Assembly: GCA_030068145.1 (NCBI GenBank)
Contig: JAPJBO010000207.1
Coordinates: 186,001 to 250,000, forward strand
From: Diplonema papillatum
Lineage: Eukaryota > Euglenozoa > Diplonemea > Diplonemida > Diplonemidae
Direction: 5' to 3'
DNA: 64,000 bases
In this document: positions 14,201-55,610 of the stretch, in pieces
Layout of the letters: every line of letters starts with the position of its first letter
How positions within the stretch are numbered: position 1 is the stretch's first letter
Notes under the pieces: model-generated
Databases searched by the model: none
The model's input: only the letters and a program-made list of their open reading frames with translations
What the model was told of the DNA's origin: nothing
Position numbers and translations under genes: made by a program

Positions 14201-15868
14201 AATTTGGGGCAGGCCCTGATTATTAGATTCACGGTTCAACGAAACTGGCCGCACAAGGTTTGCCTGATCTCGCACCTACTTTCCGACACCAAATAGATGC
14301 TCTATTCTAACGGCGGCATACCCTATCACGCTGACTATCTAGCGTTTTGTGGTTTAGCGGTTCGGTGTTTTAGGGTCTCCAGTTCACCATTGAGGCTGGG
14401 AAGCGGGTGGTACGAGGGATGTAGGCATGAGTACACACTTTAGTTACTTGGCTAGCCAATTTGTTAGTGTTGCGACCGACACCAAGAAGAAATTCGTTTT
14501 GTATTTGGTCTTGGGCCCCGGAAAAGGCCGCGTTGGCAGGAACGTTGAACATGATAATTGCCACAGGGTAGGTGGAATGAAAGCGAGAATTTGGGGTAGG
14601 CCCTGATTATTGGATTCACGGTTCAACGAAGCTGGCCGCACAAGGTTTGCCTGATCTCGCACCTACTTTCCGACACCAAATAGATGCTCTATTTTAACGG
14701 CGGCATACCCTATCACGCTGACTATCTAGCGTTTATTGTGGTTTAGCGGTTCGGTGTTTTAGGGTCTCCGGTTCACCATTGAGGCTGGGAAGCGGGTGGT
14801 ACGAGGGATGTAGGCATAAGTACACACTTTAGTTACTTGGCTAGCCAATTTGTTAGTGTTGCGACCGACACCAAGAAGAAATTCGTTTTGAATTTGGTCT
14901 TGGGCCCCGGAAAAGGCCGCGTTGGCAGGAACGTTGAACATGATAATTGCCACAGGGTAGGTGGAATGAAAGCGAGAATTTGGGGCAGGCCCTGATTATT
15001 AGATTCACGGTTCAACGAAACTGGCCGCACAAGGTTTGCCTGATCTCGCACCTACTTTCCGACACCAAATAGATGCTCTATTCTAACGGCGGCATACCCT
15101 ATCACGCTGACTATCTAGCGTTTTGTGGTTTAGCGGTTCGGTGTTTTAGGGTCTCCAGTTCACCATTGAGGCTGGGAAGCGGGTGGTACGAGGGATGTAG
15201 GCATGAGTACACACTTTAGTTACTTGGCTAGCCAATTTGTTAGTGTTGCGACCGACACCAAGAAGAAATTCGTTTTGTATTTGGTCTTGGGCCCCGGAAA
15301 AGGCCGCGTTGGCAGGAACGTTGAACATGATAATTGCCACAGGGTAGGTGGAATGAAAGCGAGAATTTGGGGTAGGCCCTGATTATTGGATTCACGGTTC
15401 AACGAAGCTGGCCGCACAAGGTTTGCCTGATCTCGCACCTACTTTCCGACACCAAATAGATGCTCTATTTTAACGGCGGCATACCCTATCACGCTGACTA
15501 TCTAGCGTTTATTGTGGTTTAGCGGTTCGGTGTTTTAGGGTCTCCGGTTCACCATTGAGGCTGGGAAGCGGGTGGTACGAGGGATGTAGGCATAAGTACA
15601 CACTTTAGTTACTTGGCTAGCCAATTTGTTAGTTTGCGACCGACACCAAGAAGAAATTCGTTTTGAATTTGGTCTTGGGCCCCGGAAAAGGCCGCGTTGG
15701 CAGGAACGTTGAACATGATAATTGCCACAGGGTAGGTGGAATGAAAGCGAGAATTTGGGGTAGGCCCTGATTATTGGATTCACGGTTCAACGAAGCTGGC
15801 CGCACAAGGTTTGCCTGATCTCGCACCTACTTTCCGACACCAAATAGATGCTCTATGCTAACTCCCAC
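11222..15868. repeat. 388-bp satellite, 12 units in a mostly alternating dimer
   Basis: Twelve units of 384-391 bp, recognisable by CTGACTATCTAGCGTTT near 11235, 11622, 12010, 12400 and so on to 15500. Two subtypes (TCTAGCGTTTATTG and TCTAGCGTTTTGTGG) alternate except at units 4-5, so the higher-order period is about 776 bp. Each unit contains GTGACCGACACCAAG-like and TCTTGGGCCCC blocks shared with dispersed repeats near 1910, 2690, 3480 and 55320. The repeated 60-80 residue frames reflect the satellite and are not genes. Confidence 0.92.
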
Positions 15869-19591: not shown

Positions 19592-21779
19592 GTCTGACGT
19601 TAGGCTGACTTTAGGCTTGACTTTAGGCTGACTTTAGGCTGACTTTAGGTTGACTTTAGGCTGACTTTAGGTTGACTTTAGGTTGACTTTAGGTTGACTT
19701 TAGGTTGACTTTAGGTTGACTTTAGGTTGACTTTAGGTTGACTTTAGGTTGACTTTAGGTTGACTTTAGGCTGACTTTAGGTTGACTTTAGGTTGACTTT
19801 AGGTTGACTTTAGGTTGACTTTAGGCTGACTTTAGACTTTAGGCTGACTTTAGGCTGACTTTAGGTTGACTTTAGGTTGACTTTAGGCTGACTTTAGGTT
19901 GACTTTAGGTTGACTTTAGGTTGACTTTAGGCTGACTTTAGGTTGACTTTAGGCTGACTTTAGGCTGACTTTAGGCTGACTTTAGGCTGACTTTAGGCTG
20001 ACTTTAGGTTGACTTTAGGTTGACTTTAGGTTGACTTTAGGTTGACTTTAGGCTGACTTTAGGTTGACTTTAGGCTGACTTTAGGTTGACTTTAGGCTGA
20101 CTTTAGGTTGACTTTAGGCTGACTTTAGTCTGACTTTAGGTTGACTTTAGGCTGACTTTAGTCTGACTTTAGGTTGACTTTAGGCTGACTTTAGGCTGAC
20201 TTTAGGCTGACTTTAGTCTGACTTTAGTCTGACTTTAGGTTGACTTTAGGCTGACTTTAGTCTGACTTTAGGTTGACTTTAGGCTGACTTTAGGCTGACT
20301 TTAGGCTGACTTTAGGTTGACTTTAGGCTGACTTTAGGCTGACTTTAGGCTGACTTTAGGTCTGACTTTAGGCTGACTTTAGGCTGACTTTAGGCTGACT
20401 TTAGGCTGACTTTAGGCTGACTTTAGGCTGACTTTAGGCTGACTTTAGGCTGACTTTAGGCTGACTTTAGGCTGACTTTAGGTTGACTTTAGGCTGACTT
20501 TAGGCTGACTTTAGTCTGACTTTAGGTTGACTTTAGGCTGACTTTAGGCTGACTTTAGTCTGACTTTAGGTTGACTTTAGGCTGACTTTAGGCTGACTTT
20601 AGGCTGACTTTAGTCTGACTTTAGGTTGACTTTAGGCTGACTTTAGGTTGACTTTAGGCTGACTTTAGGCTGACTTTAGGCTGACTTTAGGCTGACTTTA
20701 GTCTGACTTTAGTCTGACTTTAGGTTGACTTTAGGCTGACTTTAGGCTGACTTTAGTCTGACTTTAGGTTGACTTTAGTCTGACTTTAGGTTGACTTTAG
20801 GCTGACTTTAGTCTGACTTTAGGCTGACTTTAGGCTGACTTTAGTCTGACTTTAGTCTGACTTTAGGCTGACTTTAGGCTGACTTTAGGTTGACTTTAGG
20901 CTGACTTTAGTCTGACTTTAGGTTGACTTTAGGCTGACTTTAGGCTGACTTTAGTCTGACTTTAGGTTGACTTTAGGCTGACTTTAGGTTGACTTTAGGC
21001 TGACTTTAGTCTGACTTTAGGTTGACTTTAGGCTGACTTTAGGCTGACTTTAGGCTGACTTTAGGCTGACTTTAGTCTGACTTTAGTCTGACTTTAGGTT
21101 GACTTTAGGCTGACTTTAGGCTGACTTTAGTCTGACTTTAGGTTGACTTTAGTCTGACTTTAGTCTGACTTTAGGCTGACTTTAGTCTGACTTTAGGTTG
21201 ACTTTAGGCTGACTTTAGGCTGACTTTAGTCTGACTTTAGTCTGACTTTAGGTTGACTTTAGTCTGACTTTAGGTTGACTTTAGGCTGACTTTAGTCTGA
21301 CTTTAGGTTGACTTTAGGCTGACTTTAGGCTGACTTTAGTCTGACTTTAGGTTGACTTTAGTCTGACTTTAGGTTGACTTTAGGCTGACTTTAGTCTGAC
21401 TTTAGGTTGACTTTAGGCTGACTTTAGGCTGACTTTAGTCTGACTTTAGTCTGACTTTAGGCTGACTTTAGGCTGACTTTAGTCTGACTTTAGGTTGACT
21501 TTAGGCTGACTTTAGTCTGACTTTAGGTTGACTTTAGGCTGACTTTAGGTTGACTTTAGGCTGACTTTAGGTTGACTTTAGGCTGACTTTAGGTTGACTT
21601 TAGTCTGACTTTAGGTTGACTTTAGGCTGACTTTAGTCTGACTTTAGGTTGACTTTAGGCTGACTTTAGTCTGACTTTAGGTTGACTTTAGGCTGACTTT
21701 AGTCTGACTTTAGGTTGACTTTAGGCTGACTTTAGTCTGACTTTAGGTTGACTTTAGGCTGACTTTAGGCTGACTTTAG
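19592..21779. repeat. 11-bp satellite GGCTGACTTTA, about 199 units
   Basis: 2.19 kb of an 11-bp unit in three main versions that differ at two positions (GGCT, GGTT and GTCT before GACTTTA). The GTCT version is absent from the first ~0.5 kb and becomes frequent after about 20120. One unit with an internal deletion lies near 19830. On the minus (gene) strand the array reads CCTAAAGTCAG and ends about 40 bp before the e8 acceptor. Confidence 0.95.
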
Positions 21780-21873
21780 GGAAATCTAAGGTCAGATCCC
21801 GAGAGTCAGACCCTGGCCCACAGGGGGAGCCTCGCGTCCATTAGGCTGAGAGGAAAATGGATGCTCAGGATAC

Positions 21874-22400: not shown

Positions 22401-24960
22401 TACCGGTATACTACAACCGAGCCCTTTCGACAATGGCCACCCGGAGTTCACCCGAAAGAGGTCGGTGTCACTATTACAGCAAGGTCTAACAGGGTCCATC
22501 GCTATACCCTGGAGCTTCATAGAATTGCTTGGAGCTGTCTATCCCGTACCACTACAGCATGGTCTAACAAGGGTCCATCCCTGTACCCTGGAGCTTCATA
22601 GAATTGCTTGAAGCTGTCAATCACAGTGTACCACGGTACAGCATGGGCTATCAGGTCCATCCCTGTACCCTGCAGCTCCACTACATTTTTGCACTTTACT
22701 GAGGGAATAGGAGCAAGACGCACAAGACGCATGGCTAGATGAGCGCGACCACCTCGAATCGACACCAGGAGAAATCGGGTGGAGCTGACTTGACTCTACG
22801 ACTAGTAATATCCGGTAATATTCCGGTAAAAGGTAGCACTCCTGAACTAGCCCGAACCAACAGGATCAAAGACGGTCAGGCACACCTTTTCTAGTATTTA
22901 AGCTGAAAGGGCAGAAGCTCTTGCGGGTTTGCGTCGACTTGAAGTCGTGTGCTATCACTCGATTGACCTGTTTCATCCACACACCGCTGCTATTGCTAGC
23001 GTCGGTTCTTTTCTCGGTCAATTGTATCCACCTCATTGGTTTCCAACTGGGCCCAAAAAGGCACCTTCCCCGCGTAGATTGCCACCGATTTAATGAGCCG
23101 TCTGCAGACCCACTGTTAATCCATTTACTCGGAGACTTGCATGGCGTAATCCTTGAACAAGGATACGGCTACTGACAGGATCGCTTGACGCTGTCTGTTC
23201 CCTCTGCGCAAGGACGAAAAGTCGAGTGGCCTAATTCTGGATGAAGAGCGAGAGACGAGGGAGGAGGCATCGTGAGATCGTTGTGTACTTAGGAAGAAGA
23301 AAAAGAAGAACAAGAACAAGAGGAAGCAACAAGGAAGTAATGCGTAGTTTTGTTTTATTCTTTTACTTGTTAGTTGTCGACAACTTGTTTTGTGTTGAGG
23401 TGTCATTCAGATGTAAATCTAAAGCCGCCCACGTCAAATTTTGTTAAGCAGCGGCTGCCAAAACTTGCCGTGACACCTATGATCAAAGTAAGTAGGAAAG
23501 GAGAAAGGTTGCTTAAAAAAAAAGAAATGGGGGTAGGTGATACTTTTTCGACCCTCGTACACAGGCGCGCCAGGTAGGTGCTGGGCTAATTTCGGTCTGG
23601 GCTTGGGCATTGCAGTAAAGCAGTTTGAAGTGAAGAAAGAAATGCTCGGAGGCGCCGGTGCTCACTAGTTCGGCATTTCACGCTCACGTGCACGTAGGAC
23701 TTTGACTTGCGTGTGCATGTTTGATGCCCGCAAGGCGAGTGACAACACGAATACAGTGCTCTCTTTATTTTTGGGTTAAAGTTCGCTTGAGATTCCGGGA
23801 TTTCAGAGTTCTCCGGGCGACCTTTGTTAAATGCGTTCTCTTAAAGTGAGTGAGGGCTCTATGGGTGCCGGTTGTTTAGCGTTATTTGTGGATTAGAAGG
23901 TCGGTATTTTAAAGTCTCCGGTTGACCGTAGAGGCTTGAGTACGGCGGGGGGTTGAGAAAAGTGAGAGGGTGCAGCTCGTTTCGGGTGTTGTGTCACTCC
24001 GTTGTGAAACCTTGTGAAGTCCCCTAACGTGCTTGGGATTGGGTAGGGTGTGGTCGTTCTGCTACGGCGTGAAAAGCCAGGAAGTTTCGACGCTAATCTT
24101 CGACTCTTGATTAAGTTCACCGGGTTGCGTGCTCGTCAGGAAGATCCCTGTTTCTTTGGTGTGCACTTTGATTATGAGCAATAACTAGCCATGTCCGGGA
24201 CTGATTGTGACCAGCGAAACTCCCCTTGGTTGGCGGGCTTCGCAGCACGCAGGCAACTACGAATTCTTAGTACCCACCACGCGTTGATAAACGAGCGGCC
24301 TACCCCCTGAGTGGTTTCTTTTGCTGCGAAAGCAGGTGTGCGTGTTCCGAAAGAATCCCCCATGGTAATGGTGCTCTAGGTTAATGGAACGGCGCGGGTG
24401 CTCGGAAGAAAAAGAGAGTGTAAAGACGGTTGATTGAAAAGCGGTAAAAGCTAAAAGGGGGACCAACGAACAGGGGAAGAGACATCAGGCCGTTCATTTT
24501 GGGTTTCCGACGATCCCGTACGTGAGCCGGTCCGTCCCAAGCTCTTGAAACTGCATCGAAGTGCCTGCCGCTGCTTATCACAGTGAATCACGGTTCACCA
24601 CGGTCTATCAGGTCCATCCCTAGTCCCTAGAGCTGCATCGAATTGCCCGGCGCTGTATTCTTCGGTCTATCACGGTCTATCAAGAGGGGATGGACCGGCT
24701 CACCCGTACGGACGTACTGATAGGTCTTTCAACACATTTGCCTGTTGTGACGGTGCCTTGTGCATTACGACGGTGTGGGAACTCTTGCCGCACGCAGGTC
24801 CTGCAAGTCGTTTAGCGTTATTTGTGGAGTAGAAGGTCATCTTTGACAGGGCCACGGCTCGCTCCGCGCCCACGGCGCAACGACTTGCGCCCGCCGTAGT
24901 AGTACGGGATAGTAGTGGGGCGACCGGATACTCCTCGGAGAGATGGTCCCTGCACTCTAA
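22400..24960. other. Intron region without a recognised gene
   Basis: Contains three imperfect repeats of GGTCCATCCCTGTACCCTGG / AGCTTCATAGAATTGCTTG (22480-22680, with remnants near 24610). It also holds one arm of an inverted pair (22730-22900, see 31755-31960), a copy of the TTGTTAGTTGTCGACAAC segment (23340-23460, shared with 5400 and 8200) and a repeat-B copy at 23775. Open frames are short and lack domain or codon character. Confidence 0.6.
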
Positions 24961-27075: not shown

Positions 27076-27614
27076 AGAGCTCGTCACTCGCACAACCGCG
27101 GCTGATACAAAACTAATGATGATGATGACGGGAAGAGAGAGTTGTTTTCGTTGAACGCAGTGCCTGATCGTTTTACGTAAAGCTGGATTCAGGACGCAAG
27201 TGAAAACGCCACGGTTTGCGGCGACGAGCTTCTCATTTCCTCCAACATTTCATGTCTGGTAAAAAAAATAGCAAGAAGCTCTGGTTCTGGAAGTGAGGTT
27301 GCGGTTCTCTGGTCGGCCACTGCAAAGACTGTCTCTAGGAAGGGACGACGAAGAAGGAAGGGTATTGAATCTCTGACGTGTTGATGCCTGGCTTCGTGGA
27401 AACGGGCAGGGCAAGAAGAAGTGTCATGAGAAACAGAGGAGGAGGGCGCTCTATTAGGACGGAGATTCTTTTTTTTTCCAGCCAGTATCAAAACCCAGCC
27501 CGCCCCGAAGGCGGTTCGATGCTCTTTTTTTTTAGGCAGGTTTTCTCCACCGGCGGAAGTAGCTTGCTTGGGATGGCATTTATTTTTCGTTTCGGTGTAT
27601 TTCTTCTCTTTCCC

Positions 27615-27907
27615 CCCCCCCCCCCCCGGGCTTCCTTTTTACCCCTGCAAACCCGTGAATAGGTGCTACGGGAGTATCTGGCAACCGCTGCTTAACAGTG
27701 CTCACGTGGGCGGTGTCTTCGGACAGCACCTCGTGATGTTCGCATCACAAAACAAAGAAGACAGTGAAATGGTCGTTACCTGGTCGGGTTTCGCTCGCGA
27801 CCGTTTCCTGAACAATCCTTCACTAAATCCGCGGTTAAATAACCTGGCCTCAGTGGTGCAAGCACCACGCGCTCTTCAAACCCAAGAAACATTTTCCCCC
27901 CTATATA
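27615..27907 (+). mobile_element. Internally deleted derivative of the non-LTR element, left part
   Basis: Begins CCCGGGCTTCCTTTTTACCC, the 5' end region of the full element at 55.05-55.08 kb. It carries the first ~25 codons (PCKPVNRCYGSIWQPLLN), then jumps at the shared 8-mer TGCTTAAC into the element's 3' untranslated region (GTGCTCACGTGGGCGG). About 5.7 kb of body is missing. It ends at a C tract where a TIR element has inserted; the rest resumes at 29428. It cannot encode reverse transcriptase and would depend on the full element. Confidence 0.85.
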
Positions 27908-35289: not shown

Positions 35290-38200
35290 TGTGCAACACA
35301 GAAAGTAGGTACGGCACTAGTGCCAGTGACTGAGTCACCTGCTTTGTTTAGTATCACGAAGTTGACTCAGTACTGAGTCACTTGCTTTGTTTGCTACGGA
35401 AAGTAGGCGCTAGAATTTTTTTAGTAATGGTGTCGGTGGTCGTGGCACCTGCTTTGTTTAAAGCAGAAAGCACGTACTGCGATAGAATAACTCGTCAGTG
35501 ACTGAGTCACCTGCTTTGTTTGCTACGGAAAGTAGGCGCTAGAATTTTTTTAGTAATGGTGTCGGTGGTCGTGGCACCTGCTTTGTTTAAAGCAGAAAGC
35601 ACGTACTGCGATAGAATAACTCGTCAGTGACTGAGTCACCTGCTTTGTTTGCTACGGAAAATAGGCACTAGAATTAGTTATGTCGTGGCACCCTGCTTTG
35701 TTTAAAGCAGAAAGCACGTACTGCGATAGAATAACTCGTCAGTGACTGAGTCACCTGCTTTGTTTGCTACGGAAAATAGGCACTAGAATTAGTTATGTCG
35801 TGGCACCCTGCTTTGTTTAAAGCAGAAAGCACGTACTGCGATAGAATAACTCGTCAGTGACTGAGTCACCTGCTTTGTTTGCTACGGAAAATAGGCACTA
35901 GAATTAGTTATGTCGTGGCACCCTGCTTTGTTTAAAGCAGAAAGCACGTACTGCGATAGAATAACTCGTCAGTGACTGAGTCACCTGCTTTGTTTGCTAC
36001 GGAAAATAGGCACTAGAATTAGTTATGTCGTGGCACCCTGCTTTGTTTAAAGCAGAAAGCACGTACTGCGATAGAATAACTCGTCAGTGACTGAGTCACC
36101 TGCTTTGTTTGCTACGGAAAATAGGCACTAGAATTAGTTATGTCGTGGCACCCTGCTTTGTTTAAAGCAGAAAGCACGTACTGCGATAGAATAACTCGTC
36201 AGTGACTGAGTCACCTGCTTTGTTTGCTACGGAAAATAGGCACTAGAATTAGTTATGTCGTGGCACCCTGCTTTGTTTAAAGCAGAAAGCACGTACTGCG
36301 ATAGAATAACTCGTCAGTGACTGAGTCACCTGCTTTGTTTGCTACGGAAAATAGGCACTAGAATTAGTTATGTCGTGGCACCCTGCTTTGTTTAAAGCAG
36401 AAAGCACGTACTGCGATAGAATAACTCGTCAGTGACTGAGTCACCTGCTTTGTTTGCTACGGAAAATAGGCACTAGAATTAGTTATGTCGTGGCACCCTG
36501 CTTTGTTTAAAGCAGAAAGCACGTACTGCGATAGAATAACTCGTCAGTGACTGAGTCACCTGCTTTGTTTGCTACGGAAAATAGGCACTAGAATTAGTTA
36601 TGTCGTGGCACCCTGCTTTGTTTAAAGCAGAAAGCACGTACTGCGATAGAATAACTCGTCAGTGACTGAGTCACCTGCTTTGTTTGCTACGGAAAATAGG
36701 CACTAGAATTAGTTATGTCGTGGCACCCTGCTTTGTTTAAAGCAGAAAGCACGTACTGCGATAGAATAACTCGTCAGTGACTGAGTCACCTGCTTTGTTT
36801 GCTACGGAAAATAGGCACTAGAATTAGTTATGTCGTGGCACCCTGCTTTGTTTAAAGCAGAAAGCACGTACTGCGATAGAATAACTCGTCAGTGACTGAG
36901 TCACCTGCTTTGTTTGCTACGGAAAATAGGCACTAGAATTAGTTATGTCGTGGCACCCTGCTTTGTTTAAAGCAGAAAGCACGTACTGCGATAGAATAAC
37001 TCGTCAGTGACTGAGTCACCTGCTTTGTTTGCTACGGAAAATAGGCACTAGAATTAGTTATGTCGTGGCACCCTGCTTTGTTTAAAGCAGAAAGCACGTA
37101 CTGCGATAGAATAACTCGTCAGTGACTGAGTCACCTGCTTTGTTTGCTACGGAAAATAGGCACTAGAATTAGTTATGTCGTGGCACCCTGCTTTGTTTAA
37201 AGCAGAAAGCACGTACTGCGATAGAATAACTCGTCAGTGACTGAGTCACCTGCTTTGTTTGCTACGGAAAATAGGCACTAGAATTAGTTATGTCGTGGCA
37301 CCCTGCTTTGTTTAAAGCAGAAAGCACGTACTGCGATAGAATAACTCGTCAGTGACTGAGTCACCTGCTTTGTTTGCTACGGAAAATAGGCACTAGAATT
37401 AGTTATGTCGTGGCACCCTGCTTTGTTTAAAGCAGAAAGCACGTACTGCGATAGAATAACTCGTCAGTGACTGAGTCACCTGCTTTGTTTGCTACGGAAA
37501 ATAGGCACTAGAATTAGTTATGTCGTGGCACCCTGCTTTGTTTAAAGCAGAAAGCACGTACTGCGATAGAATAACTCGTCAGTGACTGAGTCACCTGCTT
37601 TGTTTAGTATCACGAAGTAGACTCAATACTGAGTCACCTGCTTTGTTTGCTACGGAAAGTAGGCACTAGAATTAGTTATCCTGTCGGTGGTTGTGTCACC
37701 TGCTTTGTTTAGTATCACGAAGTAGACTCAGTACTGAGTCACCTGCTTCGTTTGCTACGGAAAGTAGGCACTAGAATTAGTTATCCTGTCGGTGGTTGTG
37801 TCACCTGCTTTGTTTAGTATCACGAAGTAGACTCAGTACTGAGTCACCTGCTTCGTTTGCTACGGAAAGTAGGCACTAGAATTAGTTATCCTGTCGGTGG
37901 TTGTGTCACCTGCTTTGTTTAGTATCACGAAGTAGACTCAGTACTGAGTCACCTGCTTCGTTTGCTACGGAAAGTAGGCACTAGAATTAGTTATCCTGTC
38001 GGTGGTTGTGTCACCTGCTTTGTTTAGTATCACGAAGTAGACTCAGTACTGAGTCACCTGCTTCGTTTGCTACGGAAAGTAGGCACTAGAATTAGTTATC
38101 CTGTCGGTGGTTGTGTCACCTGCTTTGTTTAGTATCACGAAGTAGACTCGATACTGAGTCACCTGCTTTGTTTGCTACGGAAAGTAGGCGCTAGAATTAG

Positions 38201-42097: not shown

Positions 42098-45000
42098 TTA
42101 CGTGCGCGTTGTCGACATTGGGTATGCCTCTGTTGGGCAAATGAATGTGCTTTGTCCGCCTCGAAATGCAACGGGTGGAATAAACACGCGGCGGGCAGCA
42201 GTCAGCTGTGAGACTGACAGGTGAGCAGCGCCACCTCCGTAGCGCTCTCGGGTCGGTGCTTCGGTGGGCGGTGATCGGGGGGAGTCATCTTCAGCTTCTG
42301 GAGCAGGTTGGGGGCGGCCCTTGTACTTCACGAAGGGTTTTTCCGCCAGTAGGCGCTCGATCGCACGGTCCGTGGCAGCCGGCTCTGGCAACGATAGTGT
42401 GCGTTCCACCTCGTGTATGAGCCAAAAGAAATGCGCACGCACCTTCCCGCAAGGTTCGCCAAATTTGGCCTCCGGGTAGGTATCCAGCAGCCATTTGCGG
42501 AATCCACTCTTTAGAACGCTCTTACGGTAACCACGCCGCATGAGTTTCAGAACCGCGTTGTTCATTTCGGTCTTGAAATCATATATGTTGTTGGCGATCC
42601 TACCGTTGCGAACGAGGGCCCCAATGAGGATGCTCGAACCGAAGTTTGATGGGGCCGTCGAGAGGACTGACGTGTACGCGAGGGGTCGGTACGGGTAGGC
42701 TTTCGCCTTGTCCAAGACCGACAGTCGCATGTACCTCCTTCCAGACGCGTCGGAAACCTCGTGCCGTATCCGTATGCCAAGGAAAGTCGAATCCCCCACG
42801 CACGAGTTCGTCTGCTTGTACCTCATGCTGTAGACGGACTCGGGTGGAGGTTTCGTCCCGAAACAAAGCAGATCATCGATAAAACGGCGCGTCATGCTGA
42901 GGAGTGTAGCCCGTCGGATGTCTCTTTCAGCCAGGAGTCTCATCATGTACCTCTTCTCCTTTGCGTAGCAGAAGAGATTGGCAATGTCTGGAGAGGCGTT
43001 AGCGCCCATCGGGATACCCAGTATTTGCCGCATGAGGATACCGTTCACCAGTACGTACGTGTTCGCCAGGCAGAAAGCGAGGAGGGCCTTGAGGTCGTGT
43101 GCAGAATACGCTGCCTGCTGCGAGCTCAGATCCGTCACCAGCCTAAACGCAAAACAACGTTTCTTCTTCTGCGGCCCATGCTGGCTCTTCGGTCGTACGA
43201 GGACCAGTTCATCAACCCGTACGCCGAGCCGCTCGGCCTCCACTGCAAAGGCCTCGTCGATGGTGCCAGCAATTTCCTCCAGCAGCTCCTCGAGTCCCAG
43301 TTGGTCGTACATGGTCGTAAAATCAAACGTACCAGCGACCAGGCCCGAGAGCTCGTCAACATGCGTCTTCAGGAAGAAGGCGGTGTCGTCACTGGACTCC
43401 GTGATCCAGAAAAATCTAAACCCGGTCGCATTGAACCGGTCACTGTCTTCCCTTCGCAGGATCTCCATGACTGATTTCAACAGGCCCGTTAGATCTAGCT
43501 GCGCATCCGTCGTCGATGAAAATGTTGCATCAGGGCGGCGTGTTTCGCGTTCAGGAAAAGTCTCCTCCGGGCCCACAGTGTTTTTGCGGGAGACCCCGGC
43601 AATGTACCGCATGGTTATCACCTCCTTGTGCAGTTTCAAGGTGCCATAAAGGTACGGGAGGGTATTCGTGGGGCTCAGCCCTTTTTGCTCCAGGTACGTC
43701 TTGTGGTCTGCCACGACTTCTTCCGGTGTCTTCTCGCTCGGGGCGTAGTTCACGCTGTGGTTAACCTTCGTGTACAGATCCTGGTTGTAGAATCTTCGAC
43801 ATACGAACCCGAAGTCGTGAGAACTTTTGTCGACCGGGAGAATCACGAGGTCCTTGTGCAGCTCTCGCAGGCGCCGACGCGACGCAGTTGTTACCTCCGG
43901 CTCGGCACCAATTCGCGTCACACCGACGGTCGACATTATTTTCTCCCGCAATAGTCTGGCGAAACTAGGCGGGGAGTCACTAAAGTACCCTTCGACGAAC
44001 AAAGTCACCGCTTTATCAACCTCAGTACAAATAGCTTCGTCACCACCATCCGGGCGGAACTTGCGACCCTTGTCGAAGAGCGTGACAAGTTCGCTGCAGG
44101 TGTCGAGGAGGTGTGCCTGCCCACACGCATGGCCCTGAACGTGGTATCCTTGCAGCAGATACTTTTGACACGGGCAGTCCTCGGGCGGAGGGGCCGGCTC
44201 CGGGGTCGTCTGTCTTGAAACCTCCGTGAAGTTGGAAAGGAGGACCCCAAGGGGGGGGTTGAGTGACGTAGAGACCCTCGTGTTGATGAATTCCGTGGGG
44301 TCGGCGAGGAGGGCACGGAGTTGGGCATCGTGGCGAAAGATGGCGGCAAGTTTGCGCTCGTCCAGCAGCTTGCTGACCTGCTGGATGCAGAACCACGGGG
44401 TCCGTGCCGCACTTTTCTTCTTCTTCGCGAGGTGGTTTATTTCACCAAGCCGTGCCGTGAGCAACCCGTCCAGGATTCCTACCTTCGGGTGTTGTAGGTG
44501 CTCGATCATGAAACGCCGAATCCACGTCCGAACCCTGTACACCCGGCTCTTCATCCACGGGTTCAAGTCGTACCCCCGTAGTGCGTCCTCCTCAAGTCCG
44601 AAGAGGTGCTGCAGCTGCCTGCGGATACCGAAGAATCTCCCCCGTCCCTGGTCGATCCGTATCTGCTCGCCGTCCACGTGAATCCACGGTTCCCCACGCT
44701 CGCGTGAAGCTCCTTGGGCGTTCCTTTCGTTGCCCGGTGCCTTTGAGAACGATGGTGCAGCGCGGGGCTTTTTTCTCCGTCTGTTCAAGTCGCTGGCTGT
44801 CCTCACCGTGTTGAACATCGGTTGCAGCATCGCGATGAACGCCATCTCTATCGGCTCCGACACCCTGTCGAACGAACTCCCGTCGGAGTAAAACGCGCCG
44901 GGGATGTCGTATAGCACGAACGCGTACGGCGGGGAAGGGAGGTTCTGCAGGTGACGCTTGAACTGGTCCTGTTTGCTGTTCCTGCCAGACCAGTGTTTGG

Positions 45001-45337
45001 CGACCCTTTCCTGCATTGTCTTGCCCGTCTTGCCAACATATAACAGGTTGGCATGCGAGTCCACGAGTCCGTAGATGAGACCCGAAGCCTTGTAATTGCT
45101 CGGGTTCGCCGGCTGCTGGAGCTTGAGCGTCGCGTATGTGTGTGCGAGCTTCCTCCCGTATCTTCTTAGGAACCGGCTCGTGAACTCCACACCTTGCTCC
45201 TTCCATTTCGACCAGTCGATCTGTGTCGTCTTCTCCGTCTTCGTACGAATACAGTCGGTTTGGAAGAAGGGTGCGAGGAATGGTTTCGCAAACTCCGGGC
45301 GCCGCCGCATATCCTCGTCGGCAGGCGGTACTCGCAT
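42098..45337 (-). CDS. Penelope-like retroelement protein: N-terminal GIY-YIG nuclease plus reverse transcriptase
   Basis: One uninterrupted 1079-codon frame. GIY-YIG core: GLIYGLVDSHANLLYVGKT (about 86-104), then EPIEMAFIAMLQPMFN (161-176), which supplies the Glu and Asn of the fold. A Cys/His cluster CPCQKY...HVQGHAC lies near 387-404. Reverse transcriptase: ILPVDKSS (498), LPYLYGTLKLHK (559), motif A TFDFTTMYDQL with Asp671, motif B GIPMGANASP (773), motif C RRFIDDLL with Asp820 and Asp821, then FLGIRIRHE. FIDD and KLHK are typical of Penelope-like elements. The N-terminal nuclease places it with the Naiad/Chlamys-type group described from algae, protists and animals, not with classical Penelope (C-terminal nuclease). 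The frame starts at a non-ATG codon, so the true start is uncertain. It lies in the e4-e5 intron, in the host gene's orientation. Confidence 0.9.
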   Translation of the reverse strand: MRVPPADEDMRRRPEFAKPFLAPFFQTDCIRTKTEKTTQIDWSKWKEQGVEFTSRFLRRYGRKLAHTYATLKLQQPANPSNYKASGLIYGLVDSHANLLYVGKTGKTMQERVAKHWSGRNSKQDQFKRHLQNLPSPPYAFVLYDIPGAFYSDGSSFDRVSEPIEMAFIAMLQPMFNTVRTASDLNRRRKKPRAAPSFSKAPGNERNAQGASRERGEPWIHVDGEQIRIDQGRGRFFGIRRQLQHLFGLEEDALRGYDLNPWMKSRVYRVRTWIRRFMIEHLQHPKVGILDGLLTARLGEINHLAKKKKSAARTPWFCIQQVSKLLDERKLAAIFRHDAQLRALLADPTEFINTRVSTSLNPPLGVLLSNFTEVSRQTTPEPAPPPEDCPCQKYLLQGYHVQGHACGQAHLLDTCSELVTLFDKGRKFRPDGGDEAICTEVDKAVTLFVEGYFSDSPPSFARLLREKIMSTVGVTRIGAEPEVTTASRRRLRELHKDLVILPVDKSSHDFGFVCRRFYNQDLYTKVNHSVNYAPSEKTPEEVVADHKTYLEQKGLSPTNTLPYLYGTLKLHKEVITMRYIAGVSRKNTVGPEETFPERETRRPDATFSSTTDAQLDLTGLLKSVMEILRREDSDRFNATGFRFFWITESSDDTAFFLKTHVDELSGLVAGTFDFTTMYDQLGLEELLEEIAGTIDEAFAVEAERLGVRVDELVLVRPKSQHGPQKKKRCFAFRLVTDLSSQQAAYSAHDLKALLAFCLANTYVLVNGILMRQILGIPMGANASPDIANLFCYAKEKRYMMRLLAERDIRRATLLSMTRRFIDDLLCFGTKPPPESVYSMRYKQTNSCVGDSTFLGIRIRHEVSDASGRRYMRLSVLDKAKAYPYRPLAYTSVLSTAPSNFGSSILIGALVRNGRIANNIYDFKTEMNNAVLKLMRRGYRKSVLKSGFRKWLLDTYPEAKFGEPCGKVRAHFFWLIHEVERTLSLPEPAATDRAIERLLAEKPFVKYKGRPQPAPEAEDDSPRSPPTEAPTRERYGGGAAHLSVSQLTAARRVFIPPVAFRGGQSTFICPTEAYPMSTTRT

Positions 45338-48834: not shown

Positions 48835-51800
48835 CCCCTCTACAGTGCAGTTGCCTTGGAGGCTGGGTGGTCAAATTCTCTAAGGTGAAATGGTCAAAAT
48901 TCCCTGCCAAAAGTGGGCCCACAAAAATTTTCCAAAGTGTGGTATTTGGGGTATTTGGGGCAAAAAAAAAATTTTTTTTTTCTGACCGCCCACCGTGGTG
49001 ACCACCTTAGAGTGTGACAGGTAGCGTCTCCCCCCTCCACAGTGAAAATAGCCTGAGGGGGGGGGGAAAATGTTTCTTGGGTTTGAAGAGCGCGTGGTGC
49101 TTGCACCACTGAGGCCAGGTTATTTAACCGCGGATTTAGTGAAGGATTGTTCAGGAAACGGTCGCGAGCGAAACCCGACCAGGTAACGACCATTTCACTG
49201 TCTTCTTTGTTTTGTGATGCGAACATCACGAGGTGCTGTCCGAAGACACCGCCCACGTGAGCACTGTTAAGCATTGAGTTCTTTTAAGTACATGAACCAC
49301 ATGGATTAGCATGCACTGTGTCGCCGCTTAAGGTTACTTTATGACGTCGTCACCTGTCATTGCGTCGTCAAGGTCGAGTACTTGTGGCGCCAGGGGCGCT
49401 GGGCTTTCTTGCGGTTCTGGAGATTGCGTGGGGGGGCACAGGTGCGGACAGGCTTGCACGTTTTTCACTCTCGAGGGCACTGGAGTGCTTGGGGACGTCG
49501 GACGTTTCTGGTAGCTGCTTGCTTTAAGGGCCTTCTTCTTTTTTCGTTGCACCCCTGACTCGGGTGTGGTCGCCTTCGCCTTCTTCCGCTTGCGGCCGGC
49601 GATCGGGCTCTCCTTCGGGGTGCCGAGCACCCTCTTCTTCAACGCTGGTCGTTCGCCGGTCCCTGGCGTTGGTGGCGGCCTCTTGGCCGCCCGTCCGGTC
49701 GTCGCCGTCTTCTGCTTCACCACGGCGGGCGGTGCCTGCGCCGCGCGCTTTCCCGCCGGTGTTTCTCGTTGTACGCCCACCTGGGTGGGTGAGAGGGGTC
49801 TCTTCTTCTTTTTGCTGTGTCCGGGGGTTGCCGGGGCGTTCGGTTCGTTGGGTTGGTGGTGGCCGCGGCGGCAGCACGCTGCCGGTCTCCTCTGCGCCAA
49901 CGTAGGGAGCCCCCTGCATTCCTGGCAGGTTCCTCTGCCATGCGTGCGGCAGGCATGATGCCCGCTGCGGCAGCACGCCGCCGCCGTCTTGCACTCGCCG
50001 CATTTCGTCGTGCTGTGCTCCACGCACACCGCGATCGGCTGCCCATCGTCAGCGTGGTGATGGTGCCGACAGCACATCTCTACCGTGGGCACGTCCCTTC
50101 GGACGAGTGCTCGACACGCCTCACACTTCCCCTTGTGGTGGGTCGCGCAGGTGACGAGCGCTTTCTCTACTCCGACACCCGGCATATGCACGGGGTCGGG
50201 GTGCAGCTGTGGTGGGGCAGGCAGGGCCCACCTCGCCGCTCTCTCGGCCGTCCAGTCCGGGTACGTCGGGAACTGCGTCCCTACATCGCTTCCCTTCACC
50301 TGCTCTTCGAGGATCGTCCCCGTGTGTGCCTCGCGAAAGCGGGGCCTGGGCCGCACCCCCGATATCCCCGTGATGCCCATGAACGACAGCGACGTCGTCG
50401 GGCATACTCTCTCGCCTCGCTCGCAACTCCCCAGCCCTTGCTGTGTCGCCAGCTTGTCCAACGCGCTGATCATGCAGCGCAGGACGTTACCTCGCTCCCT
50501 CACCCCCTTCGGTGCATTCTCGTGCAGCGGTATGCTGAGGCCTGAAAAGAGTTCAAAGTCGATGGCAAGCTCTAGCATTGACGCCTGCCCGTTCTCGGTC
50601 CACTCCATGTCTGACAGCCACGCTACCAACGCATAAAACGTCGGTAGCCCCCAGGCCTTGTTCCGCTCCCACGCCCATGCCGGGGCAATCCGCGCAAAGG
50701 GGTGGTCGAGCTTCTCGGCAGGCATCGCATCCGCTCTCGACCAGGGGGTCGTGGGGTTCCTGGCTACCCAGCCTCGTGCTTCGAGCCCTGCCCGCTCCGC
50801 AAGGATTTCAGCCATCATCTCCTGGAGCCGCCTCGAGAAGTGGGCATTTTCGGGTACTACCACTCCGTGTTCCAGCGTGCATCTGGGCCAGTCGGCGCGG
50901 TTGGCCGCCATCAGCTCGGCATGTGCCTCTCGCCGCCGTATGTGCGAGTACGCTCCGCAGTCCCAGAATACGTGTTTCTCGTCCTCGGTGTCGCCGCTTC
51001 CACAGTGCTTGCAGCTGGGCGCCTGCGGCTCAGCTCCGGCCTGTCTCATCCGCGACGTGAACTCAGCCGTGTTCACTCCTCCCGCCAACGCTACACGTAT
51101 AAGCCTCGCGGTGTGCGCGGGACATTCACGCATCCTCCAGAAGGAGTTCGTCCGCTCCAAGTCGGCTCTCTGTACACCCTCAAATCCCGGCCGCCTCGCT
51201 ACCAGACGGGACCACGTCTTCGCCCTCAAATCCGCCCTCACTTCATGCCCCCTCTTCGAGGGTGTCGAGGCTATCGGGTCAAATATTGCACCATTCCTCA
51301 GCGTGCGAGACAGGGGCCCTGGTCCCCATACGTGTCCACACTCCTCCATGCTCTTCATCGCCAGTCCAACTGGCCCCAGGGGTAGGTCCTCCTCGGCGTA
51401 CCTTCCCCGGATGCTCTCCATCAGAGGCAGAAGTCGTGGCAACCTCTCGCACGCCGCGTAGAACGCCGTCGTCACCCTATATGCTAGGCATGTACTGGGG
51501 TCCGTCAGGTGGCCCTTCTCCTGAAAATTTAGGACCATCTCCCTCGCGCGCTTTGGGTTGGACCCACCCCAGATCAGTCCCATCACCGACGTCGTCAGCC
51601 GTTTCATTGCCACCTTCGACACCGGCGCGAAAGAGCAGCCTGACAGCGCCGCCGGCAGCACATTCGACTGTACAATCCGGACCCGCTTCTCGTACCGGAA
51701 CGGCGCATGGCGGAGGCCTTCCGCCAGGGCAGCCGCCTTCTCCACCCTCTCCGAGTCGGACCTTTCTGTCCTATTCTTCGCCGTCGAGACTAGGGCCCCC

Positions 51801-54800
51801 AGGCACGTGACAGATTTGCCAAACCGCAGCAGCGCATCCACGCTGCGGAGTCTGAGCGTCGACTGATGCCTACGTCTCGTCGAGAAGGCGACCGTTTTCT
51901 GGAGGTTCAGCTCCATTCCGGTGAGCGTGCAGAACTCGTCTACCACGTCCACCCCCTTTTGCAGGGCGGCCTCCGACAGCCGCGATAGCAGCGTGGCATC
52001 GTCCGCGTACGACTTTGGGCTCACCCCCTCCGCTTCTTTCTTGACCGCCTTCATCACTACCGACAGCAGGGCATTGATGAGGATGACGGATACAGGGCAC
52101 CCTTGAAGGATACCATTGGTCACACTAAACTCCCTGCCCACCCCTAGAGGCAGCTTGAAGCGTCTCGCGAGCAGTCTGTAGATCGCCCTCAGCGGCTTGA
52201 GAACCCGATTGTGCAACCCTAAGTCCCCGGCCAGGCGCAGCACTATCTCTCGCGGGACCATGTCGAAACATTTCCGGAAGTCCAGCGCCACTCCGTAGAG
52301 CGGCTCTCCATCTAGCAAGGCGTCCTCCATCTCGAGCCCTATCTCCATCAGGACGTCCTCGATACGGTGACCCGGTCGAAAGCCCTTCTGTCCTTCTTCG
52401 ATCCACTTCTCCTGCCACAGGACTATGTCCGCAAGCCTGCGGCACGCCCATAGGCGGTACACAGCGGACGTGACGGTTATTGGCCTCGTGTGCAGCGGGT
52501 CTTGGCTCTCATCCTTCGGCACCATCGACACCAGGGCAGTTGTCATGCTCGCCGGCCAAACCCCAGTCACTTCGACCAGGTTCATGACATCCGCTAGCGC
52601 ATTCAGCAGGGGAAGCGGCAACTCCCGCAGTTCAGCCATGCGCCAGCCATCCACGCCTGACGCGCTTTTCTTCGGCTTCTTCCTTAGCAGAGTCCGCAGC
52701 TCCTCCCCCGTGATCGTCCCGGGTTCCATCAAGTGTGTGTCGATGTGCTCCTGGAACCGATCCCGAAACGGTCCGTACTCCGGCTCTGGCCGGTCCTTGT
52801 ATTTACGCAGGATAGCGTCCCACGCAGTGTGCAACACCTCGTCCATCTCGTCCACATTTGCAGTCATCTTCGCTCCGGTGCGCAACACACCCGACGGCTC
52901 AGCGCGACCGGCGCAGACGGTCGCTAGACATCGTCTGCTCGCGTCCGCCCTCTCGTTAAGCTTGTCTCGGTACTTCGTAAACCTGGCCGCAGATCCTTCC
53001 CTTCCGAGCCTACTCGTCTCTTCCCGCAACGCTGTGAGCAGCTGCTTCGCCTTCTCATGATCCGGAAACCCCCCTGCGCCTTGGTCGCCCACCATGCACG
53101 CTTGTGCCAGCCGCTTGCAGTTCTGCCAGCAGAGGGACACCTCATGTGGAACAGCTTCCGGCCCGCGACGTTGCGCGAGGTAGCTGCAGATGCGTTCCAT
53201 CCGGTGGATGGCCTTTCTAAGCCGTAGCTGCCTGCTGTTCGCTGCCCCCGACCCGTCGGTCGCAGTGCCCGCCGTGACACAGACCCTCCTCGGCAATGTC
53301 TTCATCCCCCGGCCGGTACCCCTTCCTCTCTCTTCCACAGGGACGGCGAATGCATCCTGCAAGTACCGCTCACTGACCCGTGACCACTCGAGCCAGGCCT
53401 CTTCCACCCGCTGCGCCGCCAATCGTTCCGCGAATTCGGAGTTGGCCAGTCTCTGTACGGCTTCCCTGTCGGCTTCTGCTTCCGAGAGGTCCCACTTGGA
53501 CCCCCCCTCTGTCGGGATCTCCCGCGGCACCTTAAATCGCCACACGCTTTGGCGCAGCGCTGCAATATCCAGGGTCACTGTCACGAGCCGGTGTCCCGGT
53601 ACGTTCACCGCGGTGGTGACGCATTGACGGAATGCACACGCCGCTATGCGGTTGAGGAGTATGCGGTCGATCCTCGTGCCTGACGTCCGGGCGCTGGTAA
53701 AGGTCGGTGGCGGAGGCGTGTTCCCGGTGCGCGCATGGTGCAGTTCCGCTGCGTCGGACCATCCGTTCCTAAGTGCCTTCCGCAGAACAGGGGACCGATC
53801 TTCTTCCGTGTTGAGGTCTCCCATCACCAGTATGGGGACGTCGCCGAGGCTGTCTGCCGCCGCAAAGAGGACCTTCTCCAGCATGTCCTCACGTTCCTCG
53901 TTCTCCGCCCTCCCGTTTCCTGATGGGCAGTAGACATTGAACACGTGCACGAAGGTGCTGCCGGTCCCTGTTGCGACTACAGTATGGCTTACCCGGTCCG
54001 GGGACCGTAACGCCACGTGCGAGAGCGCTGCCAACGTGTCGTACGCCGGTATCGGCCTCTGTACTAGAGTGCAGAGTCCCCCGTTCGCAGCGTTCGTCGT
54101 CGAGCGACTACCGGAGCTTCTACAGAGTCTCCCGGGAGGTGGCGGACCCCAGTGGCAGCACCAATTCCGTAGGTATTCCTCCGCCTGTGCCCGTTTGCAT
54201 CGAAGGAGTGTGACCTCCTGGCAGCAAAGAAGGTCGGCTTCCACCGCGTTAACCGCTACTATGTACTGCAGCATGCTGGTCACGTTGAGCGTCGCGAACT
54301 TCATCTCCGTGCGGCCGGGACCAGGGTTCTGTTCGACGTCCCCAGCTGTTAACAGCCGCTCTCGTGCAGATCCTCTGACTGATTCTTCTGTTCTTTTACT
54401 GTTACATAAATGCGTAGGGTTGGACTGTTGATGGGGGGGATGGGTGAGTGACTGTGGGGGGGGTGGGGGGGGCATTGTGGGTGGATCCAGCGTACCTTGT
54501 TCTCCTCTGGTGGGGGAGGAGCAGCGGGCCCTTCCCTCGTGCACAGCTCTGTAGGTGAGCGAGACCCTGTCGTGTGTGACATCACCGGGACGGATCCCGT
54601 GTGTCCACAGGTTCCTGGCCTCGCCCTCCATGTGGCACAGAGTGCCGGCTGGCAGCGGGGTTCTCACTCTTTGGGTCCCCCTCTCCCACTCCATGACCGT
54701 GTCACTCAGTAGCGAAACAGTCGCAACCCTCGGTCCAAGTTCTTGCTGGTCTTTATGGGGGTTTATCCCCACTCCCTTCCGGTACCAGTTGGCCAGCAAC

Positions 54801-55085
54801 TGGTCCGGTTCCCACCCCAGACGGTCACGTATGACATCCGCAGCTTCTCTCAGGGGCCCCTCGGGGATCCCCCGCTCCAGTTTGACCGGGGGTCCGCCCT
54901 GTCGATAGGCGTGCCCCCACTGCTGGGTTTCCCTGCCATGCCCTCCCCCCAGCCTTCCCCAGGGGGCTTCCGGTCTGAGCTCGGGGACCCGGCTCAGCCT
55001 CTCCAGGAGGTTAAGCAGCGGTTGCCAGATACTCCCGTAGCACCTATTCACGGGTTTGCAGGGGTAAAAAGGAAGCCCGGGTTGG
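48835..55085 (-). mobile_element. Full-length non-LTR retrotransposon
   Basis: 5' end near 55085 (CCCGGGCTTCCTTTTTACCC) and 3' end near 48835 (CACTGTAGAGGGGGGG), set by comparison with the deleted derivative at 27.6-29.65 kb. One long frame is followed by about 0.5 kb of 3' untranslated sequence with C and G tracts and a CTCTAAGGTG / CACCTTAGAG inverted repeat. No target duplication was identified. It sits in the e4-e5 intron, same strand as the host gene. Confidence 0.85.
49334..55051 (-). CDS. Polyprotein: AlkB-like domain, 2A peptide, APE endonuclease, reverse transcriptase, zinc motifs
   Basis: 1905 codons without interruption. (1) About 60-170: AlkB-type Fe(II)/2-oxoglutarate dioxygenase, with LLANWYRKG, H99-x-D101, H151 (LWTHGI) and R162-x5-R168 (DRVSLTYR) in family order. 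(2) 236-245: GDVEQNPGP, a canonical 2A motif predicted to make the ribosome release between G244 and P245. (3) 251-490: APE endonuclease (LNVTSM, CCQEVT, VFNVYCPSG, VMGDLN, GTRIDRIL, VPGHRLV). (4) about 850-1060: reverse transcriptase, motif A ALDFRKCFDMV, motif B GILQGCPVS, motif C SYADDATLL. (5) about 1354: CKHC...H...C zinc motif. (6) about 1634-1720: three CxxHx4CxxC units. (7) Lys-rich tail. No ATG precedes the AlkB part in frame (a TAA lies near 55180), so initiation is non-AUG or otherwise unusual. Confidence 0.9.
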   Translation of the reverse strand: MNRCYGSIWQPLLNLLERLSRVPELRPEAPWGRLGGGHGRETQQWGHAYRQGGPPVKLERGIPEGPLREAADVIRDRLGWEPDQLLANWYRKGVGINPHKDQQELGPRVATVSLLSDTVMEWERGTQRVRTPLPAGTLCHMEGEARNLWTHGIRPGDVTHDRVSLTYRAVHEGRARCSSPTRGEQGTLDPPTMPPPPPPQSLTHPPHQQSNPTHLCNSKRTEESVRGSARERLLTAGDVEQNPGPGRTEMKFATLNVTSMLQYIVAVNAVEADLLCCQEVTLLRCKRAQAEEYLRNWCCHWGPPPPGRLCRSSGSRSTTNAANGGLCTLVQRPIPAYDTLAALSHVALRSPDRVSHTVVATGTGSTFVHVFNVYCPSGNGRAENEEREDMLEKVLFAAADSLGDVPILVMGDLNTEEDRSPVLRKALRNGWSDAAELHHARTGNTPPPPTFTSARTSGTRIDRILLNRIAACAFRQCVTTAVNVPGHRLVTVTLDIAALRQSVWRFKVPREIPTEGGSKWDLSEAEADREAVQRLANSEFAERLAAQRVEEAWLEWSRVSERYLQDAFAVPVEERGRGTGRGMKTLPRRVCVTAGTATDGSGAANSRQLRLRKAIHRMERICSYLAQRRGPEAVPHEVSLCWQNCKRLAQACMVGDQGAGGFPDHEKAKQLLTALREETSRLGREGSAARFTKYRDKLNERADASRRCLATVCAGRAEPSGVLRTGAKMTANVDEMDEVLHTAWDAILRKYKDRPEPEYGPFRDRFQEHIDTHLMEPGTITGEELRTLLRKKPKKSASGVDGWRMAELRELPLPLLNALADVMNLVEVTGVWPASMTTALVSMVPKDESQDPLHTRPITVTSAVYRLWACRRLADIVLWQEKWIEEGQKGFRPGHRIEDVLMEIGLEMEDALLDGEPLYGVALDFRKCFDMVPREIVLRLAGDLGLHNRVLKPLRAIYRLLARRFKLPLGVGREFSVTNGILQGCPVSVILINALLSVVMKAVKKEAEGVSPKSYADDATLLSRLSEAALQKGVDVVDEFCTLTGMELNLQKTVAFSTRRRHQSTLRLRSVDALLRFGKSVTCLGALVSTAKNRTERSDSERVEKAAALAEGLRHAPFRYEKRVRIVQSNVLPAALSGCSFAPVSKVAMKRLTTSVMGLIWGGSNPKRAREMVLNFQEKGHLTDPSTCLAYRVTTAFYAACERLPRLLPLMESIRGRYAEEDLPLGPVGLAMKSMEECGHVWGPGPLSRTLRNGAIFDPIASTPSKRGHEVRADLRAKTWSRLVARRPGFEGVQRADLERTNSFWRMRECPAHTARLIRVALAGGVNTAEFTSRMRQAGAEPQAPSCKHCGSGDTEDEKHVFWDCGAYSHIRRREAHAELMAANRADWPRCTLEHGVVVPENAHFSRRLQEMMAEILAERAGLEARGWVARNPTTPWSRADAMPAEKLDHPFARIAPAWAWERNKAWGLPTFYALVAWLSDMEWTENGQASMLELAIDFELFSGLSIPLHENAPKGVRERGNVLRCMISALDKLATQQGLGSCERGERVCPTTSLSFMGITGISGVRPRPRFREAHTGTILEEQVKGSDVGTQFPTYPDWTAERAARWALPAPPQLHPDPVHMPGVGVEKALVTCATHHKGKCEACRALVRRDVPTVEMCCRHHHHADDGQPIAVCVEHSTTKCGECKTAAACCRSGHHACRTHGRGTCQECRGLPTLAQRRPAACCRRGHHQPNEPNAPATPGHSKKKKRPLSPTQVGVQRETPAGKRAAQAPPAVVKQKTATTGRAAKRPPPTPGTGERPALKKRVLGTPKESPIAGRKRKKAKATTPESGVQRKKKKALKASSYQKRPTSPSTPVPSRVKNVQACPHLCPPTQSPEPQESPAPLAPQVLDLDDAMTGDDVIK

Positions 55086-55610
55086 GGAGGGTGGTGGGTT
55101 TGGTGCGTAGTATTCTTCTTTTTTTGTTCTTTCTCGGTTCTGGTGGTGCTGCTCCTTCCTTCTCGTCCTGTGTTGGGTTACGACGAGGGGGGGGGAGGGG
55201 GTCAGCCGGCTGATGGATGGATGGATGGTTCTTAACAAGATGCCTGGGGGGGGCATGCATCGCTTATTTCGGGTACACTTTACTTGCTTGCTTTGGCAAG
55301 TCGGGTTTGAAACAACTTGTGACCGACACCAAGAATTTCGCCAGGTTAGGGGGTTGTTCTTGGGCTCCCCACTTTTTGGACATTGTCGCTCTCATTCAAG
55401 ATATTCAACACCCCCCTAGTGGAATTCCCCCGGGCGCTCTCCAGCCAAACAGTAGACCAGAAACAAATGACTGATCCGGTTTGGTGGAGATCCGCGCTCC
55501 TGCCGGGGCTTTGTTCGGGATTAGCTGAATTAAACACCTATTCAACACCCCCCTAGTGGAATTCCCTCGGTGAACTGCAAGAAAAATGGTCGGGAATCGA
55601 GGAAAGACAC
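55086..55610. other. Intron after e4 with short repeats
   Basis: TTCAACACCCCCCTAGTGGA occurs twice (about 55404 and 55540). 55260-55345 has the TACACTTTACTTGCTTGC and GTGACCGACACCAAG words of the dispersed/satellite family. ATGG tandem repeats lie near 55212. No gene. Confidence 0.55.

Follow-up and report, generated by a model that had tools for sequence, protein, structure and literature searches.

An AlkB-type dioxygenase domain in front of the 2A peptide of a Diplonema papillatum LINE, and its relatives in other transposable elements of the genome

AlkB proteins in transposable elements (TEs), 2A peptides in long interspersed nuclear elements (LINEs) and dioxygenases passed among transposons are all known ingredients. 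Ty3/Gypsy long terminal repeat (LTR) elements of the orchid Phalaenopsis encode an AlkB protein with RNA demethylase activity in vitro, in a paper that also names plant RNA viruses with AlkB domains (PMC9289625), 2A motifs of the form -D[V/I]ExNPGP- lie in frame with the proteins of the trypanosome element L1Tc and other non-LTR elements (PMC4981915), and TET/JBP dioxygenases have been captured by several fungal DNA-transposon lineages, including Helitrons, and transferred between them (PMC12730594). Here we consider a window, that is, the whole stretch of 64,000 nucleotides analysed from Diplonema papillatum (contig JAPJBO010000207.1, positions 186,001 to 250,000), which carries on its minus strand a LINE whose reading frame joins an AlkB-type domain, a 2A peptide, an apurinic/apyrimidinic endonuclease (APE) and a reverse transcriptase (RT). 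This arrangement had been pointed out in an earlier note made from the sequence alone; what goes beyond that observation is that, judged by sequence comparison, one AlkB type is found in the LINE, in an R2-like element and in Helitrons of a single genome.

Like the orchid elements, the LINE is a retrotransposon with an AlkB that has the HxD...H and RxxxxxR signatures, but those are plant LTR elements with an ALKBH5-like protein in an additional open reading frame (ORF) (PMC9289625), whereas the present element is a non-LTR LINE, its AlkB is closest to ALKBH8 and is encoded in frame with 2A, APE and RT. The in-frame 2A motif is shared with L1Tc and its like; AlkB is not mentioned in the available part of PMC4981915, whereas here it precedes the 2A and is itself preceded, in longer copies, by ORF1 and a UGA codon. 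The element may also be likened, by description only, to the plant RNA viruses, as a self-replicating entity with its own AlkB, viral in that case. As in the fungal TET/JBP transposons (PMC12730594), a dioxygenase seems to have passed among element lineages with Helitrons among them, the differences being that the enzyme is an AlkB and that retrotransposons and Helitrons both carry it, and by analogy the present case would be the AlkB counterpart of that sharing with retrotransposons included. The D. papillatum genome paper names LINE-1, SLACS, R2 and jockey-like ORFs, Helitrons and a dozen AlkB-type genes, reads the AlkB homologs as an indication of dynamic methylation in the host and, in the part available, draws no link between them and TEs (PMC10161547). 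In a search of the open-licence literature, with Repbase reports outside its scope, none of the titles and abstracts listed describes a LINE or a Helitron that carries AlkB.

The AlkB-2A-APE-RT frame and its copies

The minus-strand frame 49334-55051 is open over 1905 codons (1905 aa), and Pfam matches bear out the claim that AlkB, APE and RT lie together in it with the 2A peptide. PF13532 (2OG-FeII_Oxy_2) scores 49.9 bits (E 5.9e-13, cut-off 31.2) over residues 68-168 (54548..54850, minus strand, as are all positions of the element), within an AlkB domain proper of approximately residues 15-175 (54527-55009). The iron-ligand HxD...H set is H99, D101 and H151 and the arginines of the 2-oxoglutarate R-x5-R motif are R162 and R168, exactly as numbered in the earlier note. 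The 2A peptide, recognised by position and sequence (..RERLLTAGDVEQNPGP, 54314..54373), reads SARERLLTAGDVEQNPGP; its NPGP occupies residues 242-245, with P245 as the final proline, so that the GDVEQNPGP motif is where it had been placed and the predicted break falls between G244 and P245. It is followed by APE at residues 260-471 (53639..54274; PF03372 Exo_endo_phos, 41.9 bits) and RT at residues 853-1057 (51881..52495; PF00078 RVT_1, 70.6 bits), both above their cut-offs. Among PDB sequences the RT is closest to human L1 ORF2p (E 3.4e-21), followed by R2 (E 1.8e-15). A Cys/His-rich C-terminal region (49832..50161), judged by eye in the translation, has no match in the Pfam scan of the ORF, which gave no RNase H domain either. 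Past the stop codon comes a 3' tail without poly(A) (49266..49333), whose end ..AATGCTTAAC is common to the other copies (seven compared); Rfam gave no family in the element, only three weak chance matches.

Since APE and RT share one frame, copies are 5'-truncated and LTRs are absent, the element is an APE-type non-LTR retrotransposon. The window copy extends over approximately 49266..55009, with junctions placed by comparison of copies: codons 1-14 of the frame are target-site DNA and the LINE starts at codon 15 (55009), two junction bases being common to both. The GTG at the beginning of the frame is no natural start codon, and a GTG just ahead of AlkB was rejected as a start, L053 having GAG at that position. 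The window copy has no ORF1, and at its start the ORF2 frame is 111 codons shorter than in the copy L043; the window copy and the copies L041, L042 and L044 are truncated at differing points. No long direct repeats were found flanking it.

We searched a 271-Mb genome assembly of 2910 contigs, in which only the best candidates of each search were scored, so that all counts given are lower bounds biased towards good copies. With residues 1-350 of the window frame as query, the best 116 of 1221 candidates were scored, the window copy included: 39 are 100% identical to it, three 99%, nine 93-94% and 65 77-78%. The suggested search for further elements with this order of domains thus revealed a young multicopy family. 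All 116 are free of stops over the matched part, whose first residue ranges from 1 to 87 and whose last is 350, and because of this the window frame is no chance ORF. D[V/I]EQNPGP is present in all nine of the LINE frames compared that cover the 2A (window, L041-L044, L046, L047 and two in L048), as it is in each of the four 2A variants compared. Related copies keep the H-x-D...H...R-x5-R set, as the earlier note had expected of a genuine AlkB, in 20/20 TE-borne frames compared, several of them near-duplicates.

The longer copies have the order ORF1, in-frame UGA-CUN, spacer, AlkB, proline-rich linker, 2A, APE, RT and Cys/His-rich region. ORF1 is present in L043 and L046 and cut at its 5' side in L047 and L048; it is open for 610 aa in L043, with a Cys/His-rich C-terminal end, and has no Pfam match in L043 or L046. 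The AlkB-2A-APE-RT frame follows after the UGA in the same phase. Eight junctions were compared (L043, L046-L048, L053-L056), which represent four subfamily types and are therefore not independent: the ORF1 stop is UGA in all eight, followed by CUG in four, CUA in three and CUC in one, and the AlkB start motif lies 306, 336, 348 or 474 nt from the UGA, all multiples of three. The spacer has no in-frame ATG in five junctions, three of which have no ATG in any frame. In three subfamily comparisons, the spacers show 15 gaps, 11 of which have a length divisible by three; the other four (26, 1, 1 and 1 nt) fall where the alignment is poor and do not alter the reading frame. The lengths and gap pattern of the spacer suit readthrough of the UGA. 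RNA folding 3' of the UGA, considered as a possible stimulator of readthrough and set against simple shuffles, was more stable in three of four sequences (z -1.8, -1.9 and -2.65) and less stable in one (+2.05).

The earlier note also supposed that the 2A frees the AlkB protein. Release at the canonical peptide is predicted, and the product may differ from the one proposed, because AlkB follows the UGA in ORF1-bearing copies and what is released there may be an ORF1-AlkB-2A fusion.

At the 5' end of the L046 copy (L050), CTGTACTTTATTG, the end of the spliced leader, stands between a LINE tail and a LINE 5' end, perhaps as a chimeric cDNA. L052 holds a 39-nt spliced-leader exon followed by GT, a 5S gene adjoins U2 in L051, and 27 of the 46 U2 candidates scored (the best of 2120) are in tandem on one contig. 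The genome paper gives a 39-bp spliced-leader exon and calls the U2-5S-SL repeat unit exceptional (PMC10161547).

Selection was estimated region by region between subfamilies as the ratio of nonsynonymous to synonymous substitution (dN/dS, Nei-Gojobori). For AlkB, L043 gives 0.238, 0.238 and 0.274 against L047, L048 and L046 (dS 0.46-0.48), with 0.50-0.62 in the linker and 0.48-0.94 in the pre-AlkB spacer in these comparisons, and L047 against L048 gives 0.265 for AlkB (dS 0.14) and 0.40 for the linker. AlkB is thus shown to be under purifying selection between subfamilies, with a constraint below that of APE and RT and above that of the neighbouring linkers. In L047 against L048 dS is uneven along the frame, which indicates recombination between subfamilies.

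The same AlkB type in Helitrons and an R2-like element

A genome search with PF13532 scored the best 150 of 250 candidates. At least 84 of these matches fall inside the 116 LINE copies and 13 others in regions fetched outside them, so that at least 97/150 are in transposon-type frames, three of the 13 (L032-L034) only probably so. Altogether 20 AlkB regions were fetched, of which 18 have the AlkB in a TE-type frame (with the same reservation for L032-L034) and two, L031 and L040, do not. These proportions bear on how the AlkB genes of Diplonema are to be read, given that they have been taken for signs of host methylation (PMC10161547, in the part available).

Two loci, L030 (G000:C166; 2632 aa) and L037 (G000:C930; 2498 aa), combine AlkB (62.6 and 53.9 bits, respectively) with Helitron_like_N (131 bits) and PIF1 (144 bits) in one frame and are Helitron ORFs, with Rep and PIF1 helicase in one protein. 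Pfam was run on these two. In L029, L035, L036, L038 and L039 there are likewise ORFs of Helitron type that begin with an AlkB of the LINE's clade; in L029, L035, L036 and L038 a frame of 378-496 aa lies upstream, RPA-like by eye and without a Pfam match in L029 or L035. A further AlkB type, in an AlkB frame of its own, is present in L032-L034 (C32, C1931 and C948). In L032 it adjoins a long frame that has an OTU-like stretch by eye and an end 25-27% like the Helitron ORFs, and the L032 type is probably a third Helitron family.

L045 (G000:C641:1-9300) has a frame of 2322 aa, open at the contig end, with AlkB (48.5 bits) and RVT_1 (76.9 bits), no 2A, and an OTU-like stretch at 20.5 bits, below the cut-off of 23.3. 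Its RT is closest to R2 among PDB sequences (E 1.3e-7), and its endonuclease was judged by eye. Five AlkB matches have equal scores (C468, C641, C1045, C783 and C2854), which suggests that elements of the L045 type form a family. The AlkBs of L045 and L043 are 78% identical over 171 aa, and the best match between the two proteins that reaches the RTs is at 21% (E 0.005). The AlkBs of Helitrons I and II are 39-48% identical to those of the LINE and L045.

In a tree of 19 AlkB sequences (12 of 31 rows, L007 among them, were left out as duplicates or partial), 11 TE AlkBs lie on one side of a branch supported at 98/97, apart from eight other AlkBs of the genome, which have long branches and are 16-33% identical in the printed columns. 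L032 and L033 group with the AlkBs of the LINE and the R2-like element, not with Helitrons I and II, at a weaker 88/89. The simplest reading of these sequences is that one AlkB type has been passed between elements. In searches that may exclude records close to the window's own genome, viral contigs yielded no relatives of either the LINE or the AlkB profile, and neither genome contigs (searched with the profile) nor phages yielded AlkB relatives.

Possible roles of the AlkB enzyme

ALKBH8 hydroxylates the wobble uridine of tRNA. It is the best match among PDB sequences to a profile of eight TE AlkBs (E 6.5e-18), followed by an S. pombe protein (2.3e-11), a DNA N6-methyladenine demethylase (1.4e-8), ALKBH3 (2.1e-8) and ALKBH2 (5.8e-8). 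The substrate of the AlkB is not given by sequence alone. Taken as a whole, the explanation that we favour, by a modest degree and from sequence comparison, is a traded accessory AlkB that acts on the nucleic acid of its element and that is made in the LINE by ORF1-AlkB readthrough and the 2A. The LINE would have acquired an AlkB-type 2OG-Fe(II) dioxygenase between ORF1 and 2A-APE-RT; most likely a minority of ribosomes reads through the UGA to give ORF1-AlkB, the 2A would end this chain at G244, and APE-RT would be made separately. ORF1-AlkB would then demethylate, by oxidation, the nucleic acid of the element that encodes it. Because one AlkB clade is found in an R2-like element as well as in Helitrons, we think of a traded eraser or repair module, which may act on something common to all carriers, such as mRNA, single-stranded DNA or the chromosomal copies, and which would benefit the element by countering silencing through a methyl mark or methylation damage. 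A narrower proposal, which we hold only tentatively and which may well be wrong, is that AlkB is a mobile eraser that counters silencing and is exchanged between APE LINEs, the R2-like element and two or more Helitron families, probably three. If it were true, the host would mark transposon nucleic acid with an AlkB-sensitive modification, most of the genome's AlkB copies would work for transposons instead of regulating host genes, and in the LINE the eraser would be produced by ribosomes that read through the UGA after ORF1 and would be parted from APE-RT by the 2A. That retrotransposons and rolling-circle DNA elements alike carry AlkB points to a selective pressure common to them, be it methyl marking or alkylation of the nucleic acid of transposons.

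Several observations weigh against this explanation. Demethylation itself is an assumption, the closest solved AlkB being ALKBH8. As regards readthrough, the spacers of L048, L053 and L055 (3/8) have an in-frame ATG, so that readthrough is not the sole route to AlkB there; the spacer is weakly constrained (dN/dS 0.47-0.94), which could mean that it is untranslated; a pyrimidine tract seen in it by eye could serve spliced-leader trans-splicing; and copy C769, with a frame of 2870 aa, may lack the UGA. The in-frame ATGs and the C769 frame weaken the case for readthrough a little. As regards selection, APE (0.16-0.17) and RT (0.03-0.07) have lower dN/dS than AlkB in L043 against L046-L048, so AlkB evolves faster, and the C-terminal tail, which is not known to form a domain, is also at 0.19-0.33 (0.19-0.30 in the comparisons with L043); AlkB in the window copy against L043 gives 0.66 (dS 0.039) and in L046 against L047 a dN of 0.0099 with dS 0, both comparisons too shallow to weigh, though neither speaks for constraint. 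Finally, two of the 150 scored AlkB matches hold internal stops (C864 two, C143 one).

The proposal of the earlier note was that AlkB repairs or demethylates element RNA before reverse transcription; as template repair only, it would have AlkB clear 1-methyladenosine and 3-methylcytidine (m1A/m3C) from LINE RNA or from the first cDNA strand and so unblock the RT. The membership of the AlkB family on which it depended stands, a complete catalytic set is present in a reverse-transcribing element, and the repair-type enzymes ALKBH3 and ALKBH2 are among the matched structures (best E 2.1e-8 and 5.8e-8). However, ALKBH8 and not ALKBH2/3 is the best solved match, and the proposal cannot be the whole story with the same AlkB clade in Helitron ORFs, elements that are not known to use reverse transcription; it could partly hold there as repair of Helitron single-stranded DNA. 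As a sole explanation we regard it as unlikely. Still less probable in our view is an effector directed at the host, which would modify host RNA (the tRNA wobble uridine or mRNA) and tilt translation or silencing to the element's advantage: the lead of ALKBH8 (6.5e-18 vs 1.4e-8 for the DNA N6-methyladenine demethylase and 2.1e-8 for ALKBH3) fits this, as does a 2A that would part AlkB from the cis-acting APE-RT for action in trans, but the likeness to ALKBH8 is distant and is no prediction of substrate, and an AlkB kept fused to ORF1 is more likely to be held on element RNA. That AlkB is a functionless passenger, taken up a single time and then distributed from element to element by recombination, is very improbable: recombination between subfamilies does occur (the uneven dS of L047 against L048), most copies are too alike for selection tests singly and two close-copy comparisons lack an excess of silent changes in AlkB, but dN/dS is 0.24-0.27 at dS ~0.47, all 116 scored copies are stop-free over the matched part, the catalytic residues persist in 20/20 frames and several TE types carry the domain.

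Insertion target and other features of the window

R1 and TRAS are site-specific APE LINEs with tandem and 5'-truncated copies. The present element resembles them as an APE-type LINE found at a fixed sequence, a likeness drawn without assignment to a clade, and differs in its target, which is the GGCARCCGCTGCTWAAC / ACGTGGGCGG motif in dispersed repeats. The 5' target flank of the window copy (..GTATCTGGCAACCGCTGCTTAAC, 55010..55094, minus strand) is 95% like the empty site 27612-27696 over 85 bases, and the 3' target flank (AGTGCTCACGTGGGCGG.., 49061..49265, minus strand) lies within the stretch 49061-49273, which is 100% identical to 27689-27901; the empty copy of the target repeat, without LINE, extends over 27612..27901 on the plus strand. 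The ..GTATCTGGCAACCGCTGCTTAAC motif is also present in L010-L028, 19 loci with 20 target sites, of which ten are empty and ten start with a short stretch from the LINE's 3' end; eight of the latter continue into the target flank and two (L011 and L014) into other sequence. From this we infer a site-specific LINE that inserts at a fixed motif. GCTTAAC at the 3' end of the LINE repeats the end of the 5' flank, both being GCTAAAC in L041, and the last 7-8 bases at the 3' end may be either LINE sequence or a target duplication. A 91-bp repeat at the 5' end of the window copy (best 40 of 638 candidates scored) had been considered as a hallmark of the LINE 5' end or a short interspersed nuclear element; this was rejected in favour of the target, because empty sites and sites with a short 3' LINE piece have the same flanks.

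The target motif (GCAGCCGCTGCTTAAC AAAATTTG ACGTGGGCGG) also occurs in empty form in the window at 23443-23461 and 8246-8264, both on the minus strand and in other repeat contexts, and L032 also holds an empty copy of the target sequence. Elsewhere in the window, a minus-strand frame of 1079 aa (42098-45337) has a GIY-YIG domain (23.5 bits, cut-off 22.6), no match among PDB sequences, and is possibly another mobile element. Large tandem arrays occupy 11213-15862 (387 bp x 12), 19594-21780 (11 bp x 199) and 35568-37605 (115 bp x 17.7).

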